Assembly: GCF_000003815.2 (NCBI RefSeq)
Contig: NC_049986.1
Location: 24,334,952 to 24,398,951, forward strand
Origin: Branchiostoma floridae
Taxonomy: Eukaryota; Chordata; Leptocardii; Amphioxiformes; Branchiostomatidae
Direction of reading: 5' to 3'
Length of the DNA stretch: 64,000 nucleotides
The notes beneath the pieces were generated by a model, which made no database searches, was not told the DNA's origin, and worked only from the letters and a program-made list of their open reading frames with translations. Shown in pieces: positions 42,853-64,000 of this stretch. Positions within the stretch are counted from its first letter, which is position 1, and the number at the start of each line of letters is the position of its first letter. The translations under genes were made by a program, and so were the position numbers.

Positions 42853-43286
42853 TCAACTTGGGACTTGACAGATGAAATTCAGAGATGCGTTAGAACACAA
42901 CAAATCGTTCCAACTGTTCATAGGCCTGATGGTAGATTGTATATTTTCATTACCTGGCCAATAATGTGCACAGTGCTCATTGCCGCCATACGCATTGTTG
43001 GGTTCTCCTGGAGCCCACTGCTCAAAATGTCCAAGAGGAACACCGTCTGCCCACACAAATTTACCCTCTTGGACGCGGTCAGTCAGTCCAAACCAGAACC
43101 AGGCGTTTTTATCCACAGCGTTCTTCAGATCGATGAGGAACGCGTTGATGCCCGCATCCCAGGGCATGGCGAGAGTTCCGCCATCAGAAGAACAGGTCGC
43201 AACTGCATGGTCGTAGTTACCCTGTTGGTTGAAGGCCTTGAAGCACAGTTGGTTGGGATGGTAGTATTTGTACCCGTCTGGGCAAC
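42853..43286 (-). CDS. C-type lectin domain terminal exon
   Basis: The exon opens after acceptor CTTGAAACAG in phase 1 and reads GCPDGYKYYHPNQLCFKAF, ATCSSDGGTLAMP, FWFGLTDRVQEGKFVW, EPNNAYGGNEHCAHY and WNDLLCSNASLNFICQVPS, then stop. This is one complete long-form C-type lectin domain of 143 residues. EPN is the motif of mannose-type Ca2+ binding, and WND is the second Ca2+ motif. No signal-peptide exon was found in the 1.4 kb before it on the same strand. Its phase equals that of the last exon of the upstream CCP receptor, so it may be an alternative last exon of that gene. It could also be the end of a separate gene with an exon I missed. Confidence 0.75.
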
Positions 43287-44696
43287 CTGTTTCAAGAACA
43301 GGATGGATCAGAAGAGCAACTTCTACATTCATGTTCAGGGCTCGAAATACCGTCCTGCATATGCAGGTTTGCGCAGGTAAAGTTAGATCTGTGCGGGTAT
43401 TTCGAGCAAAAAGTATTTCGAGCCCTGACGCTGTATGACATTGCATGGTGTAGCTAATATGCGTTCCTGGGACCTGTGATCCGTGCCCTACACTGCGTGC
43501 CAAAGTATAACGTTTATTATCTATAGTATGTAATGCATGAGTACATTACATGCATATAATGGAGTCAATTAATGACATCATCCAGGGGTTTATGTATGGT
43601 ATCGATGACAACAGCATAAGGTGCAATCAAACTGGAATGCACCATGGCCTTGGACGATGATTCATATGCTGATGGTGATAATGCTATAGGATGCACTAAA
43701 AACTAGGATTTTTTACTGCAATTAAACCAAAGCATTATAATGAATGTTTCTTTTCTTGTGATTGTGGCATACAGACTTTTGAATAATGAAGGGTAACCCA
43801 TTATTTTAAAAATATTTTTTGTTGTTAACTTGCTGCAAGGCTTGCTGTTATATTTATGCACAAAACCTATTCTATGCCATGTCATGTTTTGTATTTTACA
43901 AATTAAGAAGCATTCATTTGAATCCATTTGGATTGGAAATTTATTTCAGCTCAGCAATCAAAACACAACAATGGAGCAACCGATACATACAATGCCCCAT
44001 CTGTACAATCAGCCACACTAAACAGCAAAGATCAGCAAAGCTATCTGTAAATATTGCTTATGAGGAAAATATATTAAATTTTAGTTTTTACATTTTATCC
44101 AAAGTTTAAAAAAAACACTCCTGTTAATTGCTTCACTCAAATGTAGCACATTTTCATCAAATGGATAACACAAAGCAAACAGCTTTGCAACATAACAGTA
44201 ATGCAAACTGAATAATTATAAGTCACTGATTAAAGAATATTCCATTAATTTAAGACTATGATTAGTATTAAATATACCATTAATACGGTTATTACCTTCA
44301 TCAAATACTTTCGCAGCCAGTAACCACACGTCAAAACATATTGTACTAGTATTCACACATCACAAATGGGAACTATTGTACTTGCCACTTGACTTACAGC
44401 ACATACAACTGGTAGTACCTGTTTTATCTGTATGCATGCTTTTTTGTGTCTGAATAAAGTTTTTACTAAAAAAAAGATATAGGTCATGAGTCAGAGGTAG
44501 TAAACATAAAGTCATTGTCCGTAACAGATTTTTTTCTGGTCGTCTCCAGGTTGGTTGTACTGTTTTTTAGTAACCTGGGCTTTTTGTGGTTATATGTCAC
44601 TGGTCAGCTATAACATTACCCTAAATACCTGGGGCGGATAGCCTACGTTGTGCATTCTGTGTTCAACTCATTATCGACTTCTTGTTATTCGATGAT
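43287..44696. other. AT-rich interval between the lectin exon and the IgGFc-binding exon
   Basis: No exon was recognised on either strand. TTTATT at about 43937 could be a minus-strand AATAAA signal for the upstream receptor gene. Confidence 0.4.
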
Positions 44697-46048
44697 CTAG
44701 GGATTTACAGAGATCTGTTCAAAACGCATGCCTCCGGGAAACCCAACTGAGTCGTAGGAGGAGTAGCCGTAGTAGAAGACAGAGAAGGTGACAACAGCGG
44801 AGTTGTGTTTGATCTTGTGAGTGCCTGTGCTTGTGATGTGCAGCTGCGCAGCGGACAGGTCAGTGCCAGGAATCTGCACCCAAGATGTGGAGGATGGAAG
44901 AGCGCGTCCGTCATAGAGAAGGCCGGACCTCTCAGTGGTTTTTATGATGATATTGATGTAGCTGTCATATACTGAGCCCGCAGCATCAACTGTGGCGAAT
45001 GTGTAGTCTGCTGCGAAGTGTTCAGTCGGTGGAATGTACATCATGAAAGGGTCCCCAGTAGTATAATCAGACTCAAACCCCTTGCTGTACTGCAGAACCA
45101 TGATCGGTTTGGAAGATGCGATTACCTGGTAGGCGCTGGACGGAACATCATCCAAATCCCAGAATTCACCGGAATGAAGCCATTGAGATCTACTTGTATG
45201 CCCCGTGACTCTGACTGTGGTACCGTCCCTGGCGGCAACGATGCGGAAGATATCGCCCCCAGTTCGACCAGCAAGAGGGACTGTAACAAACCTTTTCCCC
45301 CAAGTGTCCACTGGGGGAATTTGCTCTACTAGGTGGTCGCAAGAGTGGATTCCTACAGGGACATTGGCACATTGAACGCCAGACATCAGGGTAACAGGCT
45401 TGTTTGAGGTGACGCGTGTGCCTGTAAGGTCAGATCTTTGACCTTGGAACTGAACAGCTTCAAATTTGTTCAGAACCAACCTGATGACACTTCCGGTGGA
45501 GTAGGTCAACCCTTGGTAGTGCGTAGTTCCCCGTAACGTGATCACAATGTATGTGTTATCTTCAGTACCAAAAATGCCAAATTCTGATGGTCCAGCTGGG
45601 TGTGGTTCAGTAGAGATGTAAGAAGCTACAAAGTATTCATTTCCAAGGCTGTCTAAAGGGAGGCCAAGGAACCCGTCTGTTGTGGCCGGCCTTTTGTTTA
45701 CGCCATACACAATGATTTCTTTATCTGATGTAATTGAGATGCCTTTCTGTGCCTTCTCATTACCGATGAGCGCGAGGGAAGGGGGAAGGCTCACGACCTG
45801 CACTGCTGCATCTGTGACCGTGAGGCGTCTGGTGAAGCCGGCTCCGGGTGCAGAGATGGTGACTGAGGCGGGATCAGAACTTGCGCTGGTGATGAACAGC
45901 TCAAGTATGAGTTCCCATTGCCATGGTGTTAGGTTCTGAAGAAACCCGACCATGAACTCGGTGCCTCTGTTGTCCGGAGCTGCAAATTGGAAAACGCTTC
46001 TGTATAAGGCCTTTTTACTTGATGTGGACCATCTCATCATCATCAATT
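44697..46048 (-). CDS. IgGFc-binding domain, last exon
   Basis: One exon of 450 codons contains the N-terminal type domain of IgGFc-binding protein (FCGBP): TEFMVGFLQNLTPWQWELIL, SVTISAPGAGFTRRLTV, EIIVYGVNKR, DGFLGLPLDSLGNEYFVASY, PVTLMSGVQCANVP, CDHLVEQIPPVDTWGKRFVT, then PFMMYIPPTEHFAADYTF. In vertebrate FCGBP this domain precedes vWD repeats; here none follows and the exon stops at 44697. Invertebrate deuterostomes have many such domains joined to other modules. Binding to antibody Fc cannot be the ancestral role. Confidence 0.85.
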
Positions 46049-46109
46049 CTACAAAATGAGGAATAGTTGGCTAGGAGATCTAAAGTCAGTCCGCGGAAAG
46101 GACACACAG

Positions 46110-49100: not shown

Positions 49101-52100
49101 AAAGGATTATAGTTAGCCATTTTTCAAATGTCGTTAGCAAAGCAAAAGAGGTCTGCTACAATCATGTGTTTTAAAAGATTGTATTAACTATGCACATCGG
49201 TTTAATGTTATGAAATGTACTTGATCAGAAATGGTCGCTGGAAAAGCAGCGGCAAACCCTACCTTCCGCCTGTAGGCTCCAATTGCCGGTAATGTGACAA
49301 GTCACGTTCTGGAGGTTCGTTCCTTCGTACCCGTCCGCACAGGTGACTCCGCAGGTGTTCCCGTAGGTGTGTCCGCTGGTGCACCGGATGGAGGTGTGTG
49401 GGAACTCGGGAGGGGATCCGCAACTCACTGGTGGAAATAGATGACAGCCTAGTTAGAATCTTCAAAACGTAACCCGCATAATTTGCAATCAAACTTAGAT
49501 TCTTATCATAGTGCCATCATATCGGAGTAACTCCTTTACATTTGATCATGCTGCATAATACGTAGTGAAAGGGTAAACAGGGCTATTTTCATTCAAAGCT
49601 AGGTATGAGCATGATGTATGTACCACCCAAGGAAATTATATCCTGTTACCTGGGATGCACTCTGGTTCTCCACTCCAGGTGGGTTTGTCTCCGTGAACCT
49701 GGCAGGTGAAGTTGTCCTGAATCAGCCGTTCGTACCCGTCATGACAGGTGAGATGGCACGTCTCACCGTACGTCGTACCTGTACAGCTGACGTCACCGTG
49801 TTCAGGCGTCTGTGAGCAGAGGAGGTGAGTGAAACATTTTCTACAGGGATTTCTACTTATAGATTGTAACAACAGATTGATGGATAACTGACTCAAATTG
49901 AATTCATTAGATCAATATATTGATTATTAAGTATACACTTCTTTCAAATTGATAAAAATGTAGCGATGAGATATTCACCAGATACCAGAAGATAAGGATA
50001 CATAAGATGCTCACCGAAATACTTCCACAGTCAGCGATGACACAAACCAGAGTTTGTGGGATAACGTTGTCTGCAAAAGGGAAAAGTACGATGCTCACAT
50101 AGTCTGTATCTGTATCTGTATATACACTTCACTGTCAAATCAACGTTCCAAACCCCAGTCTATAATCATATATGTTATGAGACTATCTTGACAAAGATCA
50201 AACGCCCGATGCAAAATAGAAAGAAAAAATCATTCATAAGGTATATGTTTTGATGCAGAATAGTGTATTATTTCCCAAACCTGCTGATAACGCATTTTCC
50301 ATCTCCGTCGTGTTTTCTCCGCGAAAGGTTATCCAGTTTCCGGTCCAGCTGCAGCCCAGGGTGTCGTTTGTTTCCGGTACGTACCGCATGTCACAGATGA
50401 CGTCACAGCGGTCCGAGAACACGTGACCCTGGCACAGGTACGAGCCGTGCGGGGGGTCCTCAGGTAGGCTGCAGTTTACTAAATGCAAAATATATTGGAA
50501 ACATCATAAGGAACATTGACTTGACATTGAGATCAAATGATCTACTTGAAAAGCTTTGGAAGTGATCATCTATAGCGACTGACAAAACTTGATGTTTGCT
50601 TGACCGGTACTTGCATTGTAATGGGCGTGATCGTTGTGATGAATATATATAATTTTCTTCGAGTTCTAGAAGAGCTGACCGTTGGACAGTGTCAATCAGT
50701 AACCGTAGACATAGTTGCGAGCCTAATGATAATAGTCTCAATGTCCTGAAGCCATGCACGTTAGTCAAGTCAAGTTTATTGCACAACGATTGTAACAGGT
50801 ACAATGTTTGGCAAATAACGTATACCTAACAACTACAAATACAGTACAGGGTGCGTGCCGGGGCAGGTAGCCTCGCTCACAAACCACTCTGGCTTCTAAC
50901 ATTTAATCACATAAATAACGCCCTACCTGGGTCGCACAGTGCGGGTTTGTCCCATTGTCCTGAAGCCGTGCACGTCAGTACAGGGTACCGGGGCAAGTAG
51001 CCTCGCTCACAAACCACTCTGGCTTCTAACATTTAATCACATAAATAACGCCCTACCTGGGTCGCACAGTGCGGGTTTGTCCCATTGTCCTGAAGCCGTG
51101 CACGTCAGTACAGGGTACCGGGGCAAGTAGCCTCGCTCACAAACCACTCTGGCTTCTGACATGTACGTGGTTGTGCTGCTGTTCACTTGACCATGAGCTA
51201 AATTCTTGGAATAGGAGAAAGACTTGTTAGTCGTTTTTCCTTCAAAGATTCTGTTTATTTTTTTTTTTTTTCATTTAACCAGGCTGGAAGCATATCGCCT
51301 GACGGCATTGATATCTGTTAATTACAAAGTAATGTACATGTACGTCTGTAAAAACCAGATAAAAGATTAGATATATGTACCTCATAGTCTTCACTACAAA
51401 CCACGGTTCTGCAAACGGGATGTCTGGTGGCCCCAAATGTCTCTGCAAACAGGAAGACAGAAGCTGTCAAATTACACAAATGTCTACAAGATATCCGTTA
51501 GAGAACATTATCTATGGGCACCTTTAGAAGATTACGTATACATTAATTCATCTAATGCAACAGAAGCTTAATGGTGCATCCAAAATATACTAGGTTTTTT
51601 GTACTAGACTATTATATGCTCTCTTGGGCAGATGATAAATCCTCTCCTAGGCCGATGATAAATCCTAAAGCCGATGATAAATCCTCTCTAAGGCAAAGGA
51701 TATATTCTATCTCAGCCAGAGGATATATCCTCCTAAGGCAGATGATATATCCTCTCTAAGGTACAGGATATATCCACTCTAAGGCCGATGATATATCCTC
51801 TCTAAGGCAGAGGATATATCATCTCTAAGGCAGAGGATATATCCCCTCTCAGGTATGTAATATATCCTCCCTCAGGCTGAGGATATATCCTCCCCAAGGC
51901 CGATGATATATCCTCTCTAAGGCAGAGGATATACCCTCTCTAAGGCCGATGATATATCCTCTGTAAAGCAGATGAAATATTCTCCGTAAGGCAGAGGATA
52001 TATCCAACAATGTGTATTTCAAAACAATAAATTTTCTGACTTACCTAGTCGAGACAGAACGTCCAGGAAGTCCAGGTTGGCGACGATATGCTCGATATTT

Positions 52101-55100
52101 GGACCGACCCAGATCAGCAACTGTCGCATCATGTCAAAGTCGATGATATTGTTCTCCGAGATCATGTCTAGATATGTATCCACAATAGAAAGGTTAGGGA
52201 CGTAGTCAAGCTTCACTAAAATGTTTAAAGCAACGTCCGCGTAAATTTCGTCGGGGATGCCAAGGTACTCTAACGCCCGAGGGTCGGTGTTCGGCATCGT
52301 GTCGGCAGCCCGACCGACGCCGACGAGCGTCAACACGACTTCGGGCTGGATCGGTGCCCATCGGCCGCGGTTGCAGAACAGCAGGCCTGCGTCATCGGTC
52401 TGATAACCCACGTGACATTTAGCGATGCACATGCGCACGTAGATGTTGTAGTGAGCGATTTTGGCGCAGCTGAAGTTGCCGTGACGTAGGTCTGGGAGGG
52501 ACTCGGGGAGGGACGTGCTGCCGCAAACTGGAAAGAAGTAAAGGACACTCAATTCAATAGTATCTCTTCTGCCATACTGGTCTCTGCCTGGAACACTCAT
52601 ACTCAGAAATGACTTAAGCTAACGTAGAACAGCTGATGTTTAACTCTTCTTTGGCTCATCATCATCATTATTACTAGTATCACGGGCGGGTTGTCCGGAC
52701 GGGTCTACTCTCTCCTTGTCAGAAATAAGTGGTCGAAAGACTTACGTTCTTCCACAGAAGGCGGCAGGGCCGGCTGCTGCACGGTGCCGGGAGGCTGTAT
52801 CTCTGACGCGTTCCGCCCTCCGGCCAGCGCCAACCGGTACCACCTCTGCATCTCCGGGGAAAACTGCTCAACCCACGCGGGTAGGGGCTCTGGAGGCGTG
52901 TACACTGTCGAAAAAAAATCAGAAAAAACAAACAACGTTCTTGGCCTGAGAGTGGAATACTACAAGACATGCAGAAGGTATAGAAATAGAAAAAAGAGTA
53001 GCTATTGCTTTAATAAAAGAAGCCTTATGGTCTTTTCAGAGATCTTTCGGAAAACGGCTTCCAAGCAGACAGAAAAAAATAACATTCCTCCTGTAATTTT
53101 CTATAAAAAAACACACGGGGTTTCATTTGTAGCAGGGGTGATAAGATAGCATCTAAAGAAAATAAGAGATCGAAGAAGCAGCTCTCTGGCACTACTTTCG
53201 TCAGGAGCCGTTCTTTGAATACCGCATCTGCCATAGCTTCAACGGTAATAAAGTAGCAGATGATGGTAAAAGCTAGAGTTAGCTACGATACTCACATGAT
53301 AGGACGTTGGTCTTGAAAAGAACAGCGAGCACCACAGCCGTCAGGGCGGCCAGGCAGTAGAAGATGGCGGCGAGGATGACCAGCGTGTCCGGCCCTTTCC
53401 TGCGCGGCGGGTTCAGGGCGGAGCCGTACCCGTACAGCGGCGGGCCGTACGGCCTCCAGACGCCGGCGGGCTTCAGGTGTTTCCTGGTGAAGAGGGAGTC
53501 ACAGCTCGGCTGCCTTCTGAGAGGTACCTGCGATAGAAACAAAGTATCAGAAAAAAACAAAAACACAGGATATGGAAACGTCATTTATCTACATCGCTGG
53601 GGACTTAAAATCAAGATAAAGAACAGAAATTCTAAAGACAACTTGATAACAGAGAAGAAACAGACAGCACTTATTACTTGCCTTTTCTACCTTTGGCTTT
53701 GACGCCACTGATGTTTTGTCGTCGGATTCATCGTACTGAAGTTCCATTGTTTTTTCCTCAACGGCAACACACCTTGGAACAGATTATGTATCATTTAGCC
53801 CGTGTTGGAACTGTTCTACATGCTTATATAATTATAATCTCTAATTAAAGTTAATAAAGCGTCACCATTGAAAAAAAACATGCTGGGGAAGCCTATGACG
53901 TACCGATCATCTGGGAGGTCCTCAAGCGGTGTAGGGTATGTGGGGATGTCTTCGTCGTCACTTTCACTGTTGGATTTTGGTGTTTCTTTCGTCTAAGACA
54001 TCGAAAAAGTGTCAGGTATATAAAGCTAGACACGACACATTACATTGTAAGGCATGGTGTTTTATGAGCTAATGCTTTTGCAGACTCTATACACAGATGC
54101 GCATAATCGCAGGACAAGGGGACAAGGGAAGCATTCTGGCTGACTGTGTAGATATTATACCTTGAACAACAGAGAAGATGGCTGCAATGAATATAGCAAT
54201 TATAGCATCAATTCCAACGACCGGTATTCAAATTTTTGACGGCGGCCTGTGTGTATATCAATTATTCCATCCGGGAAGGCTTCACGTGTGTGATAACTGT
54301 AGAAGCCCGTGTAATAACCCAAGTTATCACCCAGACCAGGACGCCTGTATCGAACTTATCGTGGCCCAAGTATGATATAAAAGCCAAAACTTGAAAACTT
54401 CCTACCTTGGGTTCCTGGTGGTCCTCCCGTACGGAAATGTTTGCCCATGTGAAGGAACTTTTAGGCCGTGTAGACGAGGGCGGGCGCGCAGGCTAGGGAT
54501 GGACATAATGAAACTGACGTTTAGATAGGATAAAAAAAAACAATTGGTCTCTATCAAACAATCGTATTGGATATTTAAAAGTACACTCCTTGGGGGGGAG
54601 GGGGGCAAAAAGTGACCTAGGACGTAACATGCATTGGCATAATACCGGTCATAAGCCTTATACCGGTCGATTAAAAATAGTGGAACTTAAAGAGATCTAC
54701 ACATGCAACAATAGTTATTTCTGAGGTATGCACACTTCAGACATCTAGGTGTCCAATACATCATTTACAAAGCATCGATAACAATGCATTCGAAGACAAC
54801 AAGGCCAAAAGTTTTCAGGTCATTTTCGGGGCAGGCGAGCTCGTCGTGGGACAAACACACTGTCACGTTCATCGCCAGATTTGTAGATAATAATCACATG
54901 TGCTCACGGCACAAGACGAGCATGATTCAACAGCAATCTTGAATTTCTTTTGGTGACCTACAACTCGTGTAAAAGTGTGAGGAACCGTTGCATTATCGCC
55001 CGGATCTACGGCTGAATGGGTCAAATTGAACGTACGCCGCCATTTTCCCGCCATTTTTAATGCTACGGCCAGCAGTAAAGTTTTACGTCATAGCGGTTGT

Positions 55101-56016
55101 GACGGATCAAAATTAAATGAAAATTCTTGTCAGTATACGCCCATTTTCTCATGACTTTTTGTATGCTCATGCAGATTTTTGTTTTGTGCAACTACTAACA
55201 GGAAAGAAAGGAACAACAGAGGATGTATAAAGGTACATAGCGGCAGTTAATTGTGCCGTGTTTCGTTCGACCGGTATAGTGCACCCCCTTCCAACCACGC
55301 GCCCGTTCTCCGTGCAATTCCGCGGTGTGTTCCAATTACGATATTATGTTTTTAGCAGGACCAGAGAGACAAAATAATTTACACAGAAGAAGTGGCAAAG
55401 GTAAGCTGTAACAGCAACATGTAACTGGAGAAAATGATGCGTTGATCATTTGCCAAATTAGCATTGCTTGAGAAATTGCAGTAAACCGACCGGTATTATG
55501 CCAATGGATGTTATTTATGAGTATGGCAAAATGAACACTATCAATTATCATCAATGAGTCGTAGCAATTTTTGATTGACGTATATATTTCAGGAACAAGA
55601 ATTTTCCAAAAGTCTGTGAAAGAATAGTTTAATGTATGGGAATAAAACATACTTGTTGTCAAAGCAAATTCAATTATTCAAACATGACGGCGAGAAGTAG
55701 ATTATGAAATGCAATAACAAATGTAAACAGGGCAGAATTTGTGATACAAGACAACGTAGAAATAGGGGGTATTTTGCTGGCAAAGTAAATAGAACCGCAT
55801 AAAGCTTACATTTCTTACCGGTATATTCCCCATGTCCCTTGTCGCCAATGTTGTCCCCGGCTTGTGTCTAGCCTTATGCCGTCTGCTTCGACTCCGTCCA
55901 GCCGAGTCACCCCGAGGCAGCAGGTGATCGCACCGGGTGGTCCAGGCTGTTTTAGTCGGGCCCTGAGTCGACCTGCCCCGAGGGAGCAGCTTGCTGCGGC
56001 CCAGTGACAACGACAT
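44697..56016 (-). CDS. Type II membrane protein with CCP modules, EGF and IgGFc-binding domain
   Basis: Twenty coding exons on the minus strand: 56016-55819, 54492-54406, 53992-53904, 53772-53691, 53527-53296, 52904-52746, 52527-52045, 51442-51381, 51204-51057, 50478-50281, 50070-50015, 49809-49650, 49427-49263, 49090-49026, 48883-48723, 48398-48239, 47511-47286, 46957-46763, 46445-46257, 46048-44697. All phases agree; the sum is 4467 bases, 1488 residues. Order: cytoplasmic tail (1-199), one membrane helix (about 200-223), stalk, about nine CCP-like modules with one EGF module (782-835) among them, and an IgGFc-binding domain (1039-1488). There is no N-terminal signal peptide; the internal helix with Arg-Arg-Lys before it suggests type II orientation. 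The ligand is unknown. By domain content it is a cell-surface recognition molecule, perhaps of innate immunity or mucosal surfaces. Confidence 0.85.
46107..46150. repeat. (CA)n microsatellite
   Basis: Nearly pure CA repeat in the last intron of the CCP receptor. Confidence 0.92.
46257..52904 (-). CDS. CCP/EGF ectodomain of the receptor (exons 6-19)
   Basis: Complement-control-protein modules with four Cys, a late Trp and HG(D/R/Q) turns lie in 52527-52045 (first part), 51442-51057, 50478-50281, 50070-49650, 49427-49263, 49090-48723, 47511-47286, 46957-46763 and 46445-46257. Three of them are split by a phase 0 intron after the first Cys pair (exons 8/9, 11/12, 14/15). Exon 16 (48398-48239) is an EGF module with the six-Cys pattern ending RCRVGTVGDGRHCE. 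After its CCP part, exon 7 encodes about 100 residues rich in Leu, Ile and Asp (YLGIPDEIYADVALNILVKL onward) that I do not recognise. Confidence 0.8.
47815..47975. mobile_element. Fold-back MITE-like element
   Basis: ATACAATACGGTGTATTCCG at about 47835 and its imperfect reverse complement (CGGAATACACCTTGTTGTAT) at about 47945 form arms of about 35 bases. They flank a GC-rich centre with CCTTCGGTCG repeats. No TSD was established. Confidence 0.6.
50763..50845 (-). mobile_element. LINE 3' end fragment
   Basis: GTTTATTGCACAACGATTGT and neighbouring bases repeat the 3' end of the LINE fragment at about 39815 in URM1 intron 1, in the same orientation. Confidence 0.7.
50846..51056 (-). repeat. Tandem duplication of the 3' half of CCP exon 9 with donor
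   Basis: The second half of exon 51204-51057 and its donor (CGACCCAG/GTAGGG) is repeated with a 130-base period. A nearly perfect copy has its donor at 50926-50921, and a truncated third copy lies at about 50846-50900. The copies lie in the downstream intron. Confidence 0.88.
51630..52010. repeat. AT-rich minisatellite with GATATATCC core
   Basis: About 17 units of about 22-23 bases (AGGATATATCCTCTCTAAGG with variants) fill most of the intron between exons 7 and 8. The core GGATATATCC is itself palindromic. Confidence 0.9.
53296..56016 (-). CDS. Cytoplasmic tail and membrane helix of the CCP receptor (exons 1-5)
   Basis: The start MSLSLGRSKLLPRGRSTQGP follows an acceptor four bases upstream, so a 5' UTR exon precedes it. 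The tail has two LLPRG motifs, a basic stretch (SRSRRHKARHKPG), acidic Ser-rich pieces (SNSESDDEDIPTYP, LQYDESDDKTS) of casein-kinase type, and a Pro/Tyr-Gly segment (YGPPLYGYGSALNPP). The membrane helix starts after RRKGPD and ends before KTNVLS. No signalling domain was recognised. Confidence 0.7.
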
Positions 56017-58751: not shown

Positions 58752-59196
58752 TTACAGCACATGCCTCATCTGATACACCTGGTTTCCAAGCGATTCGTGC
58801 AACTTTTCCCAAATTTTTCCCTGCCTTTTTGTTTCGTCCAGTCCAGATACGTAAGCTTAGCTAACTCTCTTGGTATCTTACAGTTATCATATTTGACGAC
58901 AACAACACACTTATCTTGTAGGTCAAGTTTACGTGTCCAAGCAACGTTCAGTTCATGCCTGCACCAACCACTCTTGATAAAGTTTTTGGACATGACCAAT
59001 ATTACCTTGCGGCTTTGGTATATTGCGTCCGCTATATTGGTAAGTATTGGTTTGCCACCAACAAAGTCACGCTCATCCAAACACACTCTGTAACCAATTT
59101 TTTCAAGATCAGCTAGCAGACTATCGTTTACCCAAGGCGACTCCTTACTGCTGTACGAGATGAACACGTCGTATTTGGGGCTTCCTTCGGTGGGTC
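58752..59196 (-). CDS. TIR domain exon with an apparent frame slip near its end
   Basis: Box 1 is KYDVFISYSSKESPWV, box 2 region is YRVCLDERDFVGGKPI, and VILVMSKNFIKSGWCRHEL is typical of TIR domains. In the frame as given the end reads GREKFGKSCTNRLETRC and stops at 58766. In the frame reached by one base slip in the A run around 58810-58816 it reads IWEKLHESLG, a normal box 3 with its Trp, and stops at 58752. A homopolymer sequencing error or a true mutant allele are both possible. Confidence 0.85.
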
Positions 59197-62100
59197 CTGC
59201 ATCAGACATAGATCATTAAAATTGCACTACTTTTGAATTACAAAGCAGTAGAATTAATCATCTCTTTGAACGCTGCTAGGCGTGAGCAGTATAGCATATT
59301 GTAAAAAAAAACGTCATCGCTTTTTATAGTTTGGTACCGTTAGGCATCCATTTAATTAATATAGAACACTAACGAAAGATAGCTGATGCTATCTGAAAGA
59401 TCAGACACTTTTTTAATATCATATAATAAAGTTGCTTGGATAATTGCTATGTTTGTATCATTTTCATAGTTTGGTTTCAGTCATTCCTGTATACCTACCT
59501 TCTCCGCGTCATTCAATATGATATACAAATCTGTTTCCGTTAGTTTTCGTTTGATGAACAAGTTAAGTTGTAAAAAGTATGAAATTCTTATCTGAAGATA
59601 TCAAAATTTATTCTAGCATTTCGTCAATTATGCAAATGTGAAAATGATTAGCATAGCTTATGGTTGATATGTTCAATTTTGATAAACTTACAAATGCTAC
59701 AAGTGTACAGTAAATATCATTTACTAGTACTACTATGGCATTATTGCATTTGCTAGCCAATTATACAATTAGCGTCTGTTTTGCATTATTGCAATAATAC
59801 ACTAGTACATACCGTATAACTTAAGCTAGCATAATCATGACACCCATCCGCTCCTATTTTAGTTCTTTTACAATCAACAGCTACATGACACTGATCTTTT
59901 GACTGACCTACTTTACAAACCAGCCAATCCCATAAGACAGCTAGTGTCCCTGAATAGAGGTCGACTACTAACTTACAATGGATTTCTAGGTTCTCCTCAT
60001 AAATTATGTAAATGAGCCCTACTTTGCATAAATAAACATCTCATTATTTTGACCATCATATTATCAACCAATCCTTATTAATCCTTAATTCATCAATCCT
60101 TACTCGAATAATTGGATTCCAAAGATAACAACAAAAAGGCCATGAGTTATATTGTAAATAAACATACAAAATACACAGCCCGTTGGTGAACCATTTTCAA
60201 AATGAGTTATAAGCAATTGCTGAAAATACTTTCTAAGCAATTGTCGAAATTTACTTTCATTGCCCTCACAGTAAACGTTGATCAAACGAAATACTGATTT
60301 GAAACCTACTCTTCTTAAGGAAAAAAAGAAATCTCACTCACTTTCTCCATCATCTGGCGGAAAGTCGACCATGTAGTTTTCTTCTTCTGTCCTGCATTTT
60401 CTAACAAAGTAGACAACTGCCACGATCACGATCGCGATCATCATGACGATACCGGTAATGATGCCAACGATGATTGCTGCAGATACTGTAGATGCTGTAA
60501 TAACACATTCTCGGTTAGTTTCCTGGCAAAATAATGGCAATATAGACAGTGATGCCAGTGATGAGGGTTTCTAGCCCCAACCCCCCTCCCCGAAACTTGA
60601 AGGCGATTCCCCCAGGCTTAGAAATACCTTGATTCAAATCATTGATTAGCAAATGTAACAGAACGTCTTGGAGGCTTCTGGACGTTTGCCGTGATCAGCT
60701 GAGTCGTAAAAAAATAACTATCGCAGACATAGGCAGTCGATGAACCAAACTACACACATATGCAGAAAATGGATCTTGAGATACAGCTGCGAACAGCATA
60801 ACAACCCTTACTACAATACAGGTGACCCTCCTTCTCAGAGTAAAGAAAAATAACCTGACGGAAGGATCAGCATACATGTACAACAGCTCCCTGTCCACAA
60901 GAGATTGTGTACTTTTTGCTCAATGAATGCAGTGGAAAATGAAACACATTTCATCTGTCAGTTTCACTATGAAACCGAATGAAACAGATTATTTCAAACA
61001 GTTGCCACAATTTCACCAAGCTTTTACCACCTAAGAGATCACAAAAAGACTATATTTCTACTAAAAGCACAAAATCCCATCATCATACAGAACGTGGGAC
61101 ATTTCATGGAAGAAGTGAAAACCGACAATAGTATTCATTGTATCATATAGTTGATTAGACACTAGTTTTATGTACCACACTGATGACTTCTCTTAGTCCT
61201 TGTGCAATTAGTCTTCGGGCATGATTTTGCAAATAAACATTGTATTTGTTACCATATTATTATCACCGATACTTACAGTACCAACCATGGCTGGTACTTT
61301 TTCCTCTTATGATATGAAACAGAAAAGTGCTAAGAATTTGAATAAAAAAGGAACAACAATTTCCTCAACTCACGTTGGCAAGTTGGGATCTCTCGTTCCC
61401 AATAGTTGTCCCGGCAGACAGTAGAAGAACTGCCAACAAGCTCATATCCGGTGTCACAGGAGAACTGGATACTGTTCCCAGAGCAGAAGCCGTTACTAGC
61501 GGTGATCTGGCCGTTCGTTATGCTGATTGTATTGTTACAGCAGATCCCTGGAATACACAATGGGTAATATCACACTTGTTAGAATCACGCATCTTGAATG
61601 TGATTTAAGGGTTACCCGCCCGAGGCGTATATGGTATCATAACACCTTTGCTATAACCACCGAATGAAACTACTCAAAAACTTTGAACTTGGCACCTGAG
61701 AAACTCTTTAACTCCAACTTTGAACCTCCGCTGCAGTACCATAACTCGCCGCTAGGAGGCCCATTATCGAACTTGACCCTTCTTTTCCCAATCCCTACCT
61801 CTCCACAAAATATTATGCAAACCCACTCGCAACGTCTCGAGTTATGTTGTCCGAAAACACACGAACACACACACTCAGTCCGCCGCAATGCCTACGGAAA
61901 GTGCTACGCCAACCATTTTTGAACTGAACCTTCCATTTCGCAACCGCTACTCAAATACCATCATCATCATCATCATTAGCCTCCTTCCGTCAAATATCAT
62001 GAAAATCCATACTCAGCTTCTCGAGCTGTAGACCTACATACATGTATCATTGGCCTCCGTCCATCTAAAGAGACGATGGGTTTTGGTCATGGTCGACATC

Positions 62101-64000
62101 TTCTTTCGTGGCTGAACAAGCCAATTCTGGAATGACATACAAGTATAGAGACACAACATCTTGCCATAACTGAAAATATAACCTTCTTGTCGAAGGTAAA
62201 AACGGAGCCTTTACCTGTAGCATAGACCTCGACCTCGCACAGTGTCAAGTCCGTTGTGTTCATGCCCTCCGGTGGTATTGCCTGTATCGACACATAATGG
62301 CCGTACATCGGCGGGGCGCAGGACGCTATGATGGCCAGCGTGTTCAAAAGTTCAGTCGTGTAATTTTGTCCGCATTGGTCATTCTGCGTGAAATCTTCGT
62401 TCGGGCCAACCCGCACTGTCAGAGTGGTTCCAGCAGTATCTGTAAAAATACGTCAACAAATGTAGTAAGTGAAAATTAGGAATTGTACCGTGTAAAGTGA
62501 GTCAGAAGAATGCTTAACGTCACCTTCAGTACTACAGTAAAGATACCAGACGACGTTACGCAGCGGTGGAGGCGTACGTGTGAGAGACATATGATTACGC
62601 AGATGGAAAAGAAATCGTGCTTGGTCACAAAATGCTTTGTTGTTTTTCTTCATTCTATTCACGCTCTTTTACAAGTAGCCCATAGAATATAGTCAATATA
62701 CTATTTGTACTTCTAGGAGGCGATTTGTCTTATCAATCTAAACAATCATATGTCTCGTATCGCAACTTTTAGACTGTGTCTTCTGACTTGAGTTAGCAAC
62801 AGATGATTATTAATGCAGGTGCATGTACCAGTAACTGTGCATAAACAACTTACCCAACTGGAGGAGGGGAACCCTAATGCTGACCCGGCTGACTGAGTGG
62901 TAACCTGCCAGGTCCAGCTTCCACCATGGCTCATATTCTAGGTCTGTTTGAGAGCAGTTACTGGAACCATCCACAGCCTTTTCCGCTCCCGTACCATTAG
63001 CAAATGTGGAACTCTGCGATGCTTTCTGTCCGAGGGCTAAGTTATCTTCTGCAATAGAGCAGGAAGCCATCATTATAAAAAATAGGGCTGTAATGACAGG
63101 AGATTCTGAAGTTATTTTTGCTATAGAAGTAAACAAGAGTAAGCGTTTGGCCTTTTCTGTGTTTGTTTCTTTCTACCTATAAATCAAGACCCCCTAAGTT
63201 GGTAAGTCTGACTATTTAGTATGTTGGTAGTTAAAGAAGGTATCAAACACCCACGACATACCTCAAAGCGCAATTATCGCAGCGCGGAGGATTGTGCCCT
63301 ACTTACTGACAGTGGTTTCTTTTATCCGAGTTTGATGGGGGTTCTTGACACCGTCTTCAGAATGTAAACAGACATCTTACCTTTGTCACAGAATGGGCCA
63401 GTCCAGCCGACGTTGCAAGCACAGGTGCCGTCAGCACTTCCCGTGGTGCAGTCCCCGCGGCTCTGACAAACGTTTTCTGCCGCAATTTCTTTCAACGCAT
63501 CGCCTTTCATGTGGGAAGGGGAGTTGCAGGTAGGGTCATGTATATCGTCAATTAAATCGCGCAGACGTGCCGAAGTCAATAGATCATATAAACTACAGTC
63601 ACACCTCCATGGGTTTCTAGCTATGTAAAGGGCCTGAAGACTGGTCAGATTTGAGAATGCCGATGGCAGACTCGAAATGTTATTGTTGTCCAGGTGAAGT
63701 TCATCCAAACTGGTCAGATGTGAGAACACTTCGTCCGGGAGGTCAGTTATTTGATTTTGAGATAGCCGTAGCTCTTTCAGCTGGGTAAGGTCTGAGAACA
63801 TCCCATCCGGGAGGTCAGGTATATGATTATCAGATAACCACAGCTTCTCCAGACTGGTGAGATGTGAGAAAATTTTAGAGGGCAGACTCGAGATGTTATT
63901 GTTGTCCAGGTAAAGCCTTTCCAAATGGGTTTGCAGATTTAAGAATATTTCATCCGGGAGGTTTGATATATAATTACCAGATAGAGTCAATTCATACATA
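58752..64000 (-). CDS. TIR receptor with LRR, EGF, fucolectin-like and CCP domains (5' end outside window)
   Basis: Six exons on the minus strand: 63999-63381 (continues beyond the window), 63048-62854, 62439-62215, 61547-61374, 60494-60342, 59196-58766 (or 58752). Every junction is phase 1. The visible part is about 598 residues: LRRs and LRR C-cap, one EGF-like module, a fucolectin/F5-8C domain split over two exons, one CCP module, one membrane helix, a short linker and a TIR domain. It is a type I receptor, expected to recognise glycans or other microbial ligands outside and signal through TIR adaptors such as MyD88. Ordinary Toll-like receptors have only LRRs outside; the fucolectin-CCP part is unusual. 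A frame slip near 58810 affects the end of the TIR domain. Confidence 0.83.
59197..60341. other. Intron between membrane and TIR exons
   Basis: AT-rich DNA without recognisable coding sequence or repeat structure. Confidence 0.5.
60342..60494 (-). CDS. Membrane helix exon of the TIR receptor
   Basis: STVSAA is followed by about 24 hydrophobic residues (IIVGIITGIVMMIAIVIVAV and on to YFV), then the stop-transfer RKCRTEEE. This gives a type I orientation with the TIR inside. Confidence 0.82.
61374..61547 (-). CDS. CCP (sushi) exon of the TIR receptor
   Basis: GICCNNTISITNGQITAS, FCSGNSIQFSCDTGYELVG and VCRDNYWEREIPTC give one CCP module of about 57 residues, with a late Trp and phase 1 introns on both sides. 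Confidence 0.82.
61950..62155 (-). mobile_element. LINE 3' fragment in the TIR receptor gene
   Basis: The minus strand reads CHSRIGLFSHERRC, then P and stop, followed by GATGGACGGAGGCCAATGAT and a (TGATGA)n-like tail. It is the same C-terminal type as the fragment at 18735. Confidence 0.6.
62215..63048 (-). CDS. Fucolectin/F5-8C (FTP) domain, two exons
   Basis: Exon 63048-62854 reads EDNLALGQKASQSSTFANGT, AEKAVDGSSNCSQTD, EPWWKLDLAGYHSVSRVSIR. Exon 62439-62215 reads TLTVRVGPNEDFTQNDQCGQ, MYGHYVSIQAIPPEGMNTTD and LTLCEVEVYATG. This is the fucolectin-tachylectin-4-pentraxin type of F5/8C fold, which binds fucose with a Ca2+ nearby. Whether the His and Arg residues that hold fucose are present was not established. 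Confidence 0.82.
63381..64000 (-). CDS. LRR, LRR C-cap and EGF exon
   Basis: At least five LRRs of 23-24 residues of the LxxLxLxxNxIxxLPxxIF kind are visible (for example LEKLWLSDNHIPDLPDGMF). They are followed by the C-cap NPWRCDCSLYDLL ... TCNSP ... NVC. The exon ends with CTTGSADGTCACNVGWTGPF, an EGF/laminin-like Cys pattern, and splices in phase 1. The N-terminal cap, signal peptide and further repeats must lie beyond base 64000. Confidence 0.85.

Follow-up and report, generated by a model that had tools for sequence, protein, structure and literature searches.

A lancelet receptor gene that joins an LRR-EGF-FTP-CCP ectodomain to a TIR tail, and its kinase-tailed sisters

The DNA considered here (the window) is a 64,000 nt stretch of the Branchiostoma floridae genome (assembly GCF_000003815.2, contig NC_049986.1, forward-strand positions 24,334,952 to 24,398,951). 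At its far end is a minus-strand gene of six exons (58766-64749; the focal gene) with a single frame of 848 codons. In order, it encodes a signal peptide, LRRNT, LRRs, LRRCT, EGF, an F-type-lectin-like (FTP) domain, CCP, a transmembrane (TM) helix, and TIR. The start codon is outside the window, 749 bp past position 64000, along with the first 749 nt of the LRR exon; the stop codon is at 58766-58768, and not at 58752. All five introns are GT-AG and all five are phase 1. An alternative in-frame acceptor would start exon 5 at 60485 instead of 60494. The parts of the gene are as follows:

Exon 1, 64749-63381 (in the window, 63381..64000), minus strand: signal peptide, LRRNT, LRRs, LRRCT, and EGF; open frame from the ATG at 64749; donor GTAAG.
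Exon 2, 62854..63048, minus strand: first FTP half (F-type-lectin-like); cation motif AVDGS; fucose-motif His replaced by Gln.
Exon 3, 62215..62439, minus strand: second FTP half, with C-terminal LCEVEVY.
Exon 4, 61374..61547, minus strand: a single CCP/Sushi module (Sushi 5.4e-7).
Exon 5, 60342..60494, minus strand: TM helix and acidic juxtamembrane stretch; best 19-residue hydropathy 3.1.
Intron 5, 59197..60341, minus strand: phase 1, separating the TM exon from the TIR exon.
Exon 6, 58766..59196, minus strand: TIR domain and stop.

Pfam matches to the spliced protein include LRR_8 (2e-66), TIR_2 (3.4e-25), TIR (8.8e-20), F5_F8_type_C_2 (4e-7), and Sushi (5.4e-7). The Teneurin-like EGF is right at its cut-off (3.4e-5), LRRNT scores under its own, and the signal-peptide-like start was judged by eye; no Ig family appears in the table. 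A reading of this stretch made from its sequence alone (the sequence-only reading) had described these modules as joined in one frame by phase 1 exons. With small corrections to the coordinates, the spliced model and the Pfam matches bear this out, and support the prediction of a single-pass membrane receptor with LRR-EGF-FTP-CCP outside and TIR inside.

A tblastn search of 20 genomic stretches with the focal domains revealed two paralogs on the same contig (C8). P1, a full paralog of 787 residues, is 0.53 Mb away (C8:24929426-24934018, stretch L013); P2, with 797 residues, was assembled from stretches L033 and L014. Both repeat the order LRR-EGF-FTP-FTP-CCP-TM-TIR, and across the three genes every intron (16 of 16) has GT-AG borders and phase 1, a count that excludes the degenerate extra CCP copy of P2. 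In that gene, two CCP exons are intact and a third is degenerate; it also has an 844-base gap of Ns between FTP and CCP, and an acceptor 3 bases further in for its second FTP exon. The LRR exons are 1369 (focal), 1144 (P1), and 1000 (P2) bases long, and by alignment the difference is in LRR number. Three genes with equal order, strand, and phases argue against a division of the LRR-lectin and TM-TIR exons between separate genes, and for the one gene and one membrane receptor first proposed.

Ratios of nonsynonymous to synonymous substitution (dN/dS; pairwise among the three genes, NG86 method, no significance test) are 0.19-0.45 for the TIR core, 0.26-0.69 for CCP, 0.43-0.72 for LRRCT plus EGF, 0.45-0.69 for the LRRs, 0.58-0.85 for TM, 0.62-0.76 for FTP, and 0.89-1.36 for the signal peptide plus LRRNT, the contrast between TIR core and FTP fitting a constrained tail and a freer ectodomain. 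All three genes also have an in-frame ATG (MSDAG, window 59197-59209) ahead of the TIR exon, and a TIR-only product from this inner start is conceivable.

The genome (513,431,437 bases in 431 contigs) was searched with the FTP, CCP, LRRCT-EGF, and TIR exons, then with the kinase exons of G2, a sister gene described below, and matches were joined into loci by position. From 142 FTP matches, 15 loci were taken in which both FTP half-exons and at least one subfamily CCP exon (at least 55% identity) occur together; weaker FTP pairs were left out. LRRCT-EGF exons were sought up to 7 kb upstream and other exons up to 22 kb downstream, before the next locus. The tally was built from the better matches, with only the best candidates scored, and its counts are therefore lower bounds. 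There are at least 15 family loci, nine of them within C8:24.39-25.29 Mb; LRRCT-EGF was found at 14 and CCP, by construction, at all 15. Eleven loci on six contigs have a kinase tail (G2, G3, G4, G6, G7, and one at 1.5 Mb, all on C8, and one each on C4, C5, C6, C15, and C183, their ectodomain exons assigned by position), three have a TIR tail, all on C8, and one has neither. In the genome, copies of the ectodomain outnumber those of the focal-type TIR.

In G2, the exons behind TM encode a tyrosine kinase (PK_Tyr_Ser-Thr 3.7e-19), for which the nearest solved structure is Tie2 (4e-13). The kinase-exon search found none of these exons in the focal, P1, or P2 loci, and the genome-wide TIR search found no TIR in the kinase loci. 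Hidden kinase exons in the TIR loci were considered, and rejected on the former result. A further locus, G5 (L034, C8:24981000-24989999), shares the family ectodomain and TM exon, after which nothing recognisable as a tail follows, neither a TIR nor a kinase exon having been found there in the genome-wide searches; it is a possible decoy. Kinase exons of the same family also occur at C18:1533885-1536847 and C14:20615980-20619834, behind other or weaker ectodomain matches, and the kinase family therefore reaches past the LRR-EGF-FTP-CCP ectodomain.

Among solved structures, the focal TIR is nearest to TLR15, TLR2, and TLR1. Within the genome it is closest to the TIRs of P1 (79%) and P2 (78%), followed by four genes on C16 (66-68%) and one on C18 (64%); no other match exceeds 46%, apart from three fragments (38-46 residues long, 47-52%). 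In a tree of 29 rows (27 of the 90 TIR matches in the genome, plus human TLR1 and TLR2), these eight close TIRs group together (84/85, unstarred, with long-branch warnings), separately from the amphioxus Toll-like receptors (TLRs) and the two human ones. A topology with the three lectin-receptor TIRs among the TLRs and C16/C18 excluded is rejected (approximately unbiased test, p-AU 0.0001, for groups picked after viewing the tree). The ectodomain was inspected in one C16 gene, whose half-exons give weak Ig matches singly; when they are joined, one of three pieces exceeds the cut-off (Ig V-set, 4.3e-6), with weaker Ig matches besides. Of the four C16 stretches, all but L017 contain Ig-like motifs by motif count. 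Judged by these comparisons, the nearest relatives of the focal TIR are Ig-type TIR genes, not TLRs.

The C18 relative has a 189-codon open frame (L035, 8836-9405), with no FTP, CCP, or LRRCT-EGF match near it among the genome-wide search listings, and may be an intracellular TIR protein.

Represented by the P1 exon, the LRR block has LRRC15, IGFALS, LRIG1, LRRTM, and LGR4 as its best solved matches. Of 60 solved matches listed, VLRB is 23rd and TLR13 25th, and one, 8suf, is named a TIR domain-containing protein; LRRs being repetitive, such a ranking is a weak test of family.

The join between ectodomain and tail can be located within an intron. At the DNA level, G2 is alignable with P1 and P2 in parts of the CCP-TM intron, in the TM exon, and for about 210 and 259 bp into the intron that follows, the alignment breaking off before the TIR exon. 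The C16 and C18 TIR genes align with P1 and P2 from about the TIR acceptor onward. In focal intron 5, the match to G2 is absent past about the end of the TM exon. The TM exons are homologous: the one that precedes TIR in P1 and P2 corresponds to the one that precedes the kinase in G2. The position of this homology break is a matter of observation, as are the gene structure, the paralogs, and the alternative tails; the break is what an exon exchange inside a phase-1 intron would be expected to leave.

It is thus likely that the focal receptor arose by exon shuffling, and that its TIR exon stands in place of the kinase exons of a receptor kinase family. The outer part, LRR-EGF-FTP-CCP, together with the TM exon, would derive from a family most of whose members end in a Tie-like tyrosine kinase; three members would have received, at the site of the kinase exons, a phase-1 TIR exon akin to those of the Ig-ectodomain C16 receptors. 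The kinase tail would have come first, because it is found at 11 of 15 loci on six contigs, and TIR at three loci on one. One type of sensor thereby appears to be wired to two signalling systems, TIR and tyrosine kinase. More tentatively, at a little short of an even chance, the largely clustered family, with its varying LRR number, could form a paired-receptor system, in which one kind of ectodomain plus TM is combined with interchangeable tails (kinase, TIR, or none).

For the focal-type receptor, we infer expression, ligand, and adaptor as well as the direction of the swap. The LRR solenoid would be the main ligand-binding surface; an amphioxus VLR-like LRR protein is described as using its concave face to bind bacteria (PMC4731796). 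The FTP and CCP modules could be binding surfaces for something other than fucose, providing extra contacts, or could be spacers. Ligand would pair the receptors, and the paired TIRs would recruit a TIR adaptor; in the kinase sisters, the same ligands or ones like them would lead to tyrosine phosphorylation. If so, one class of ligand would be read by both growth-factor-type and Toll-type signalling in an invertebrate chordate.

Several points weigh against an exchange of tails of this kind. The FTP exon is too short for its tree to be informative (none of 11 inner branches is starred), and because the tree lacks resolution, it does not fix how many swaps occurred or in which direction. The support comes from the genomic DNA of one species, and G2 is the only kinase sister read as sequence, the other ten having been placed by match positions. 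G3 is without a detectable LRRCT-EGF exon, and there are stops inside 2 of the 22 kinase matches counted (C8:1522795 and C15:1489885) and one FTP match (C5:16402260), which may represent intron or decay. Support for the TIR clade is moderate, and the grouping of the whole eight-TIR clade with TLRs stays unrejected (p-AU 0.075). Finally, in the focal gene the last ~14 residues of TIR are frame-shifted relative to P1, P2, and one C16 gene, by single-base length differences near the 3′ end, where P1 and P2 read through. The region lost is one we take to be box-3. In low-confidence models (mean predicted local distance difference test scores of 53 and 57, the focal one 53), used for this feature only, the TIR of P1 has a final helix (residues 121-135) and the focal TIR has none there.

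The focal copy may accordingly signal poorly, be decaying, or hold an assembly error. That it is a decaying or decoy member, with a real architecture and a non-signalling TIR, while P1 and P2 work, is a serious possibility, if a somewhat less than even one, and is compatible with exon shuffling in the family: the shifted 3′ end and the missing helix point that way, against a TIR core dN/dS of 0.34-0.45 relative to the paralogs, a frame free of any earlier stop, and the possibility that the shift is an assembly error or an allele.

The sequence-only reading had gone further, to a TLR that senses fucosylated or similar glycans directly through its built-in lectin. The FTP domain is a real relative of F-type lectins: its best solved match is the F-lectin FBP32 (3cqo, E 3.7e-15), with eel agglutinin (1k12) at 0.0016. 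The fucose motif of F-type lectins is given as HX24RXDX4(R/K), and departures from it may mean another specificity or loss (PMC5712786). The focal FTP lacks this motif. Its residues were read at 14 of the 15 loci (C6 left out). The His is replaced in all 14 of these two-exon domains, by Q in the focal gene and by A and V in its two TIR paralogs; RxD is absent from these three and present in 4 of the 14 (G3, G6, C15, and C183). As a positive control, three FTP domains encoded by single exons in this genome, taken from among the stronger matches, all keep both His and RxD. What is kept in the subfamily is the cation motif (h2DGx), as AVDGS in 11 of 14 domains, including those of the focal gene, P1, and P2, as GVDGS in G6 and C183, and as AVDGY in C5.

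Loss of the motif is thus observed, and the focal lectin domain probably does not read fucose. With His gone from 14 of 14 domains and RxD from each of the three TIR genes, there is no support for a direct reading of fucose, and fucose sensing was rejected. A glycan-sensing TLR is improbable altogether: LRR, TM, and TIR are all present and the FTP keeps its cation motif, but the LRRs best match LRRC15, IGFALS, and LRIG, and the TIR is nearest to those of Ig-type genes. A receptor need not sense sugars just because it contains a lectin-type domain.

The name Toll-like receptor is a weak fit. By a loose rule a TLR has at least one LRR, one TM, and one TIR (PMC6224433), all of which the focal protein has. 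Its ectodomain is not LRR-only, as EGF, FTP, and CCP come between LRR and TM; its closest TIRs in the genome are not those of TLRs, and its LRRs best match other LRR receptors. Where human TLR2 has its BB-loop Pro, the focal TIR has Gly and P1 and P2 have Ala; the Pro is also missing from some TLR-like rows of the genome. Its loss has been tied to the silence of one amphioxus TLR in human cells, yet bbtTLR1, also without it, is said there to act with MyD88 (PMC6224433). A true TLR by descent, with a rebuilt ectodomain that the kinase sisters borrowed, might be read from the TLR15, TLR2, and TLR1 structural matches and the unrejected grouping of the whole clade with TLRs; we doubt it strongly, given a kinase form at 11 of 15 loci on C8, C4, C5, C6, C15, and C183 versus a TIR form at three loci on C8 only, and Ig-type genes as the nearest TIRs outside the family. 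Least probable is a prediction chimera of an LRR-lectin gene with a separate adjacent TIR gene: the model was built from genome sequence alone, an in-frame ATG is just upstream of the TIR acceptor in all three genes, and prediction errors are said to be common among lancelet domain combinations (PMC4967905, cited in PMC6224433), but it is very unlikely because P1 and P2 keep the exons, their order, strand, and phases (16 of 16 introns), and the TM exon ahead of TIR in P1 and P2 is homologous to the one ahead of the G2 kinase.

The focal gene is flanked by inverted repeats, 50842-55104 versus 72354-83489 in coordinates running from the window through stretches L009 and L010. The paired pieces are:

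54624-55104 with 72834-72354, inverted: 99.4%.
52042-52537 with 82689-82194, inverted: 90.5%.
50842-51246 with 83489-83089, inverted: 92.3%.

The flanking pieces repeat in inverted order, which therefore puts the focal gene in the spacer of an inverted duplication. Minus-strand open frames at window 42856-46070 and 51040-51270 match C-type lectin (2.3e-14), IgGFc-binding (1.1e-79), and Sushi (6.4e-6), and are perhaps another mosaic receptor.

Neither the LRR-EGF-FTP-CCP-TIR combination nor an exchange of kinase for TIR was found in the literature searched; paywalled papers and supplements were beyond reach, and either is possibly in print. Novel domain combinations in lancelets have been disputed as artefacts of prediction; the present TIR hybrid has three genes and 16 of 16 matching introns behind it. 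With the join inside one intron, it offers a clean and testable case of tail exchange under a kept sensor, and the occurrence of one kind of ectodomain on both TIR and kinase allows a sharp experiment.

Among known systems, TLRs resemble the focal protein in having LRR outside, one TM, and TIR inside, and supply its nearest solved TIRs (TLR15, TLR2, TLR1); they differ from it in the absence of EGF, FTP, and CCP between LRR and TM, and the focal gene has six exons, LRRs that best match LRRC15/IGFALS/LRIG, and a BB loop in which the Pro of human TLR2 is replaced. With F-type lectins it shares sequence relation, a CCP neighbour, and the cation motif; unlike them, it is without the fucose motif, and has LRR, EGF, and TIR added. 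More than 70 FTP clusters are reported for B. floridae, and the Drosophila proteins CG9095 and furrowed combine FTP, CCP, and TM (PMC5712786).

Hybrid TIR genes are an established feature of amphioxus, in which 20 of 28 TIR combinations are given as amphioxus-specific (PMC2575513), and the TIR domain is described as over-represented among the dispensable genes of two lancelets (PMC12373286). The focal gene resembles these as a lineage-specific combination; unlike them, its combination is not known to be named in PMC2575513, and it comes with paralog support and a kinase alternative. The C16 Ig-TIR genes, which are IL-1R-like, are the closest TIR relatives outside the family (66-68%) and differ in having an Ig ectodomain (in the gene examined). 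The Tie-like kinase sisters share the ectodomain exons by position, to which sequence comparison adds, for G2, the TM exon and the beginning of the following intron; they differ in having kinase exons where the focal gene has TIR.

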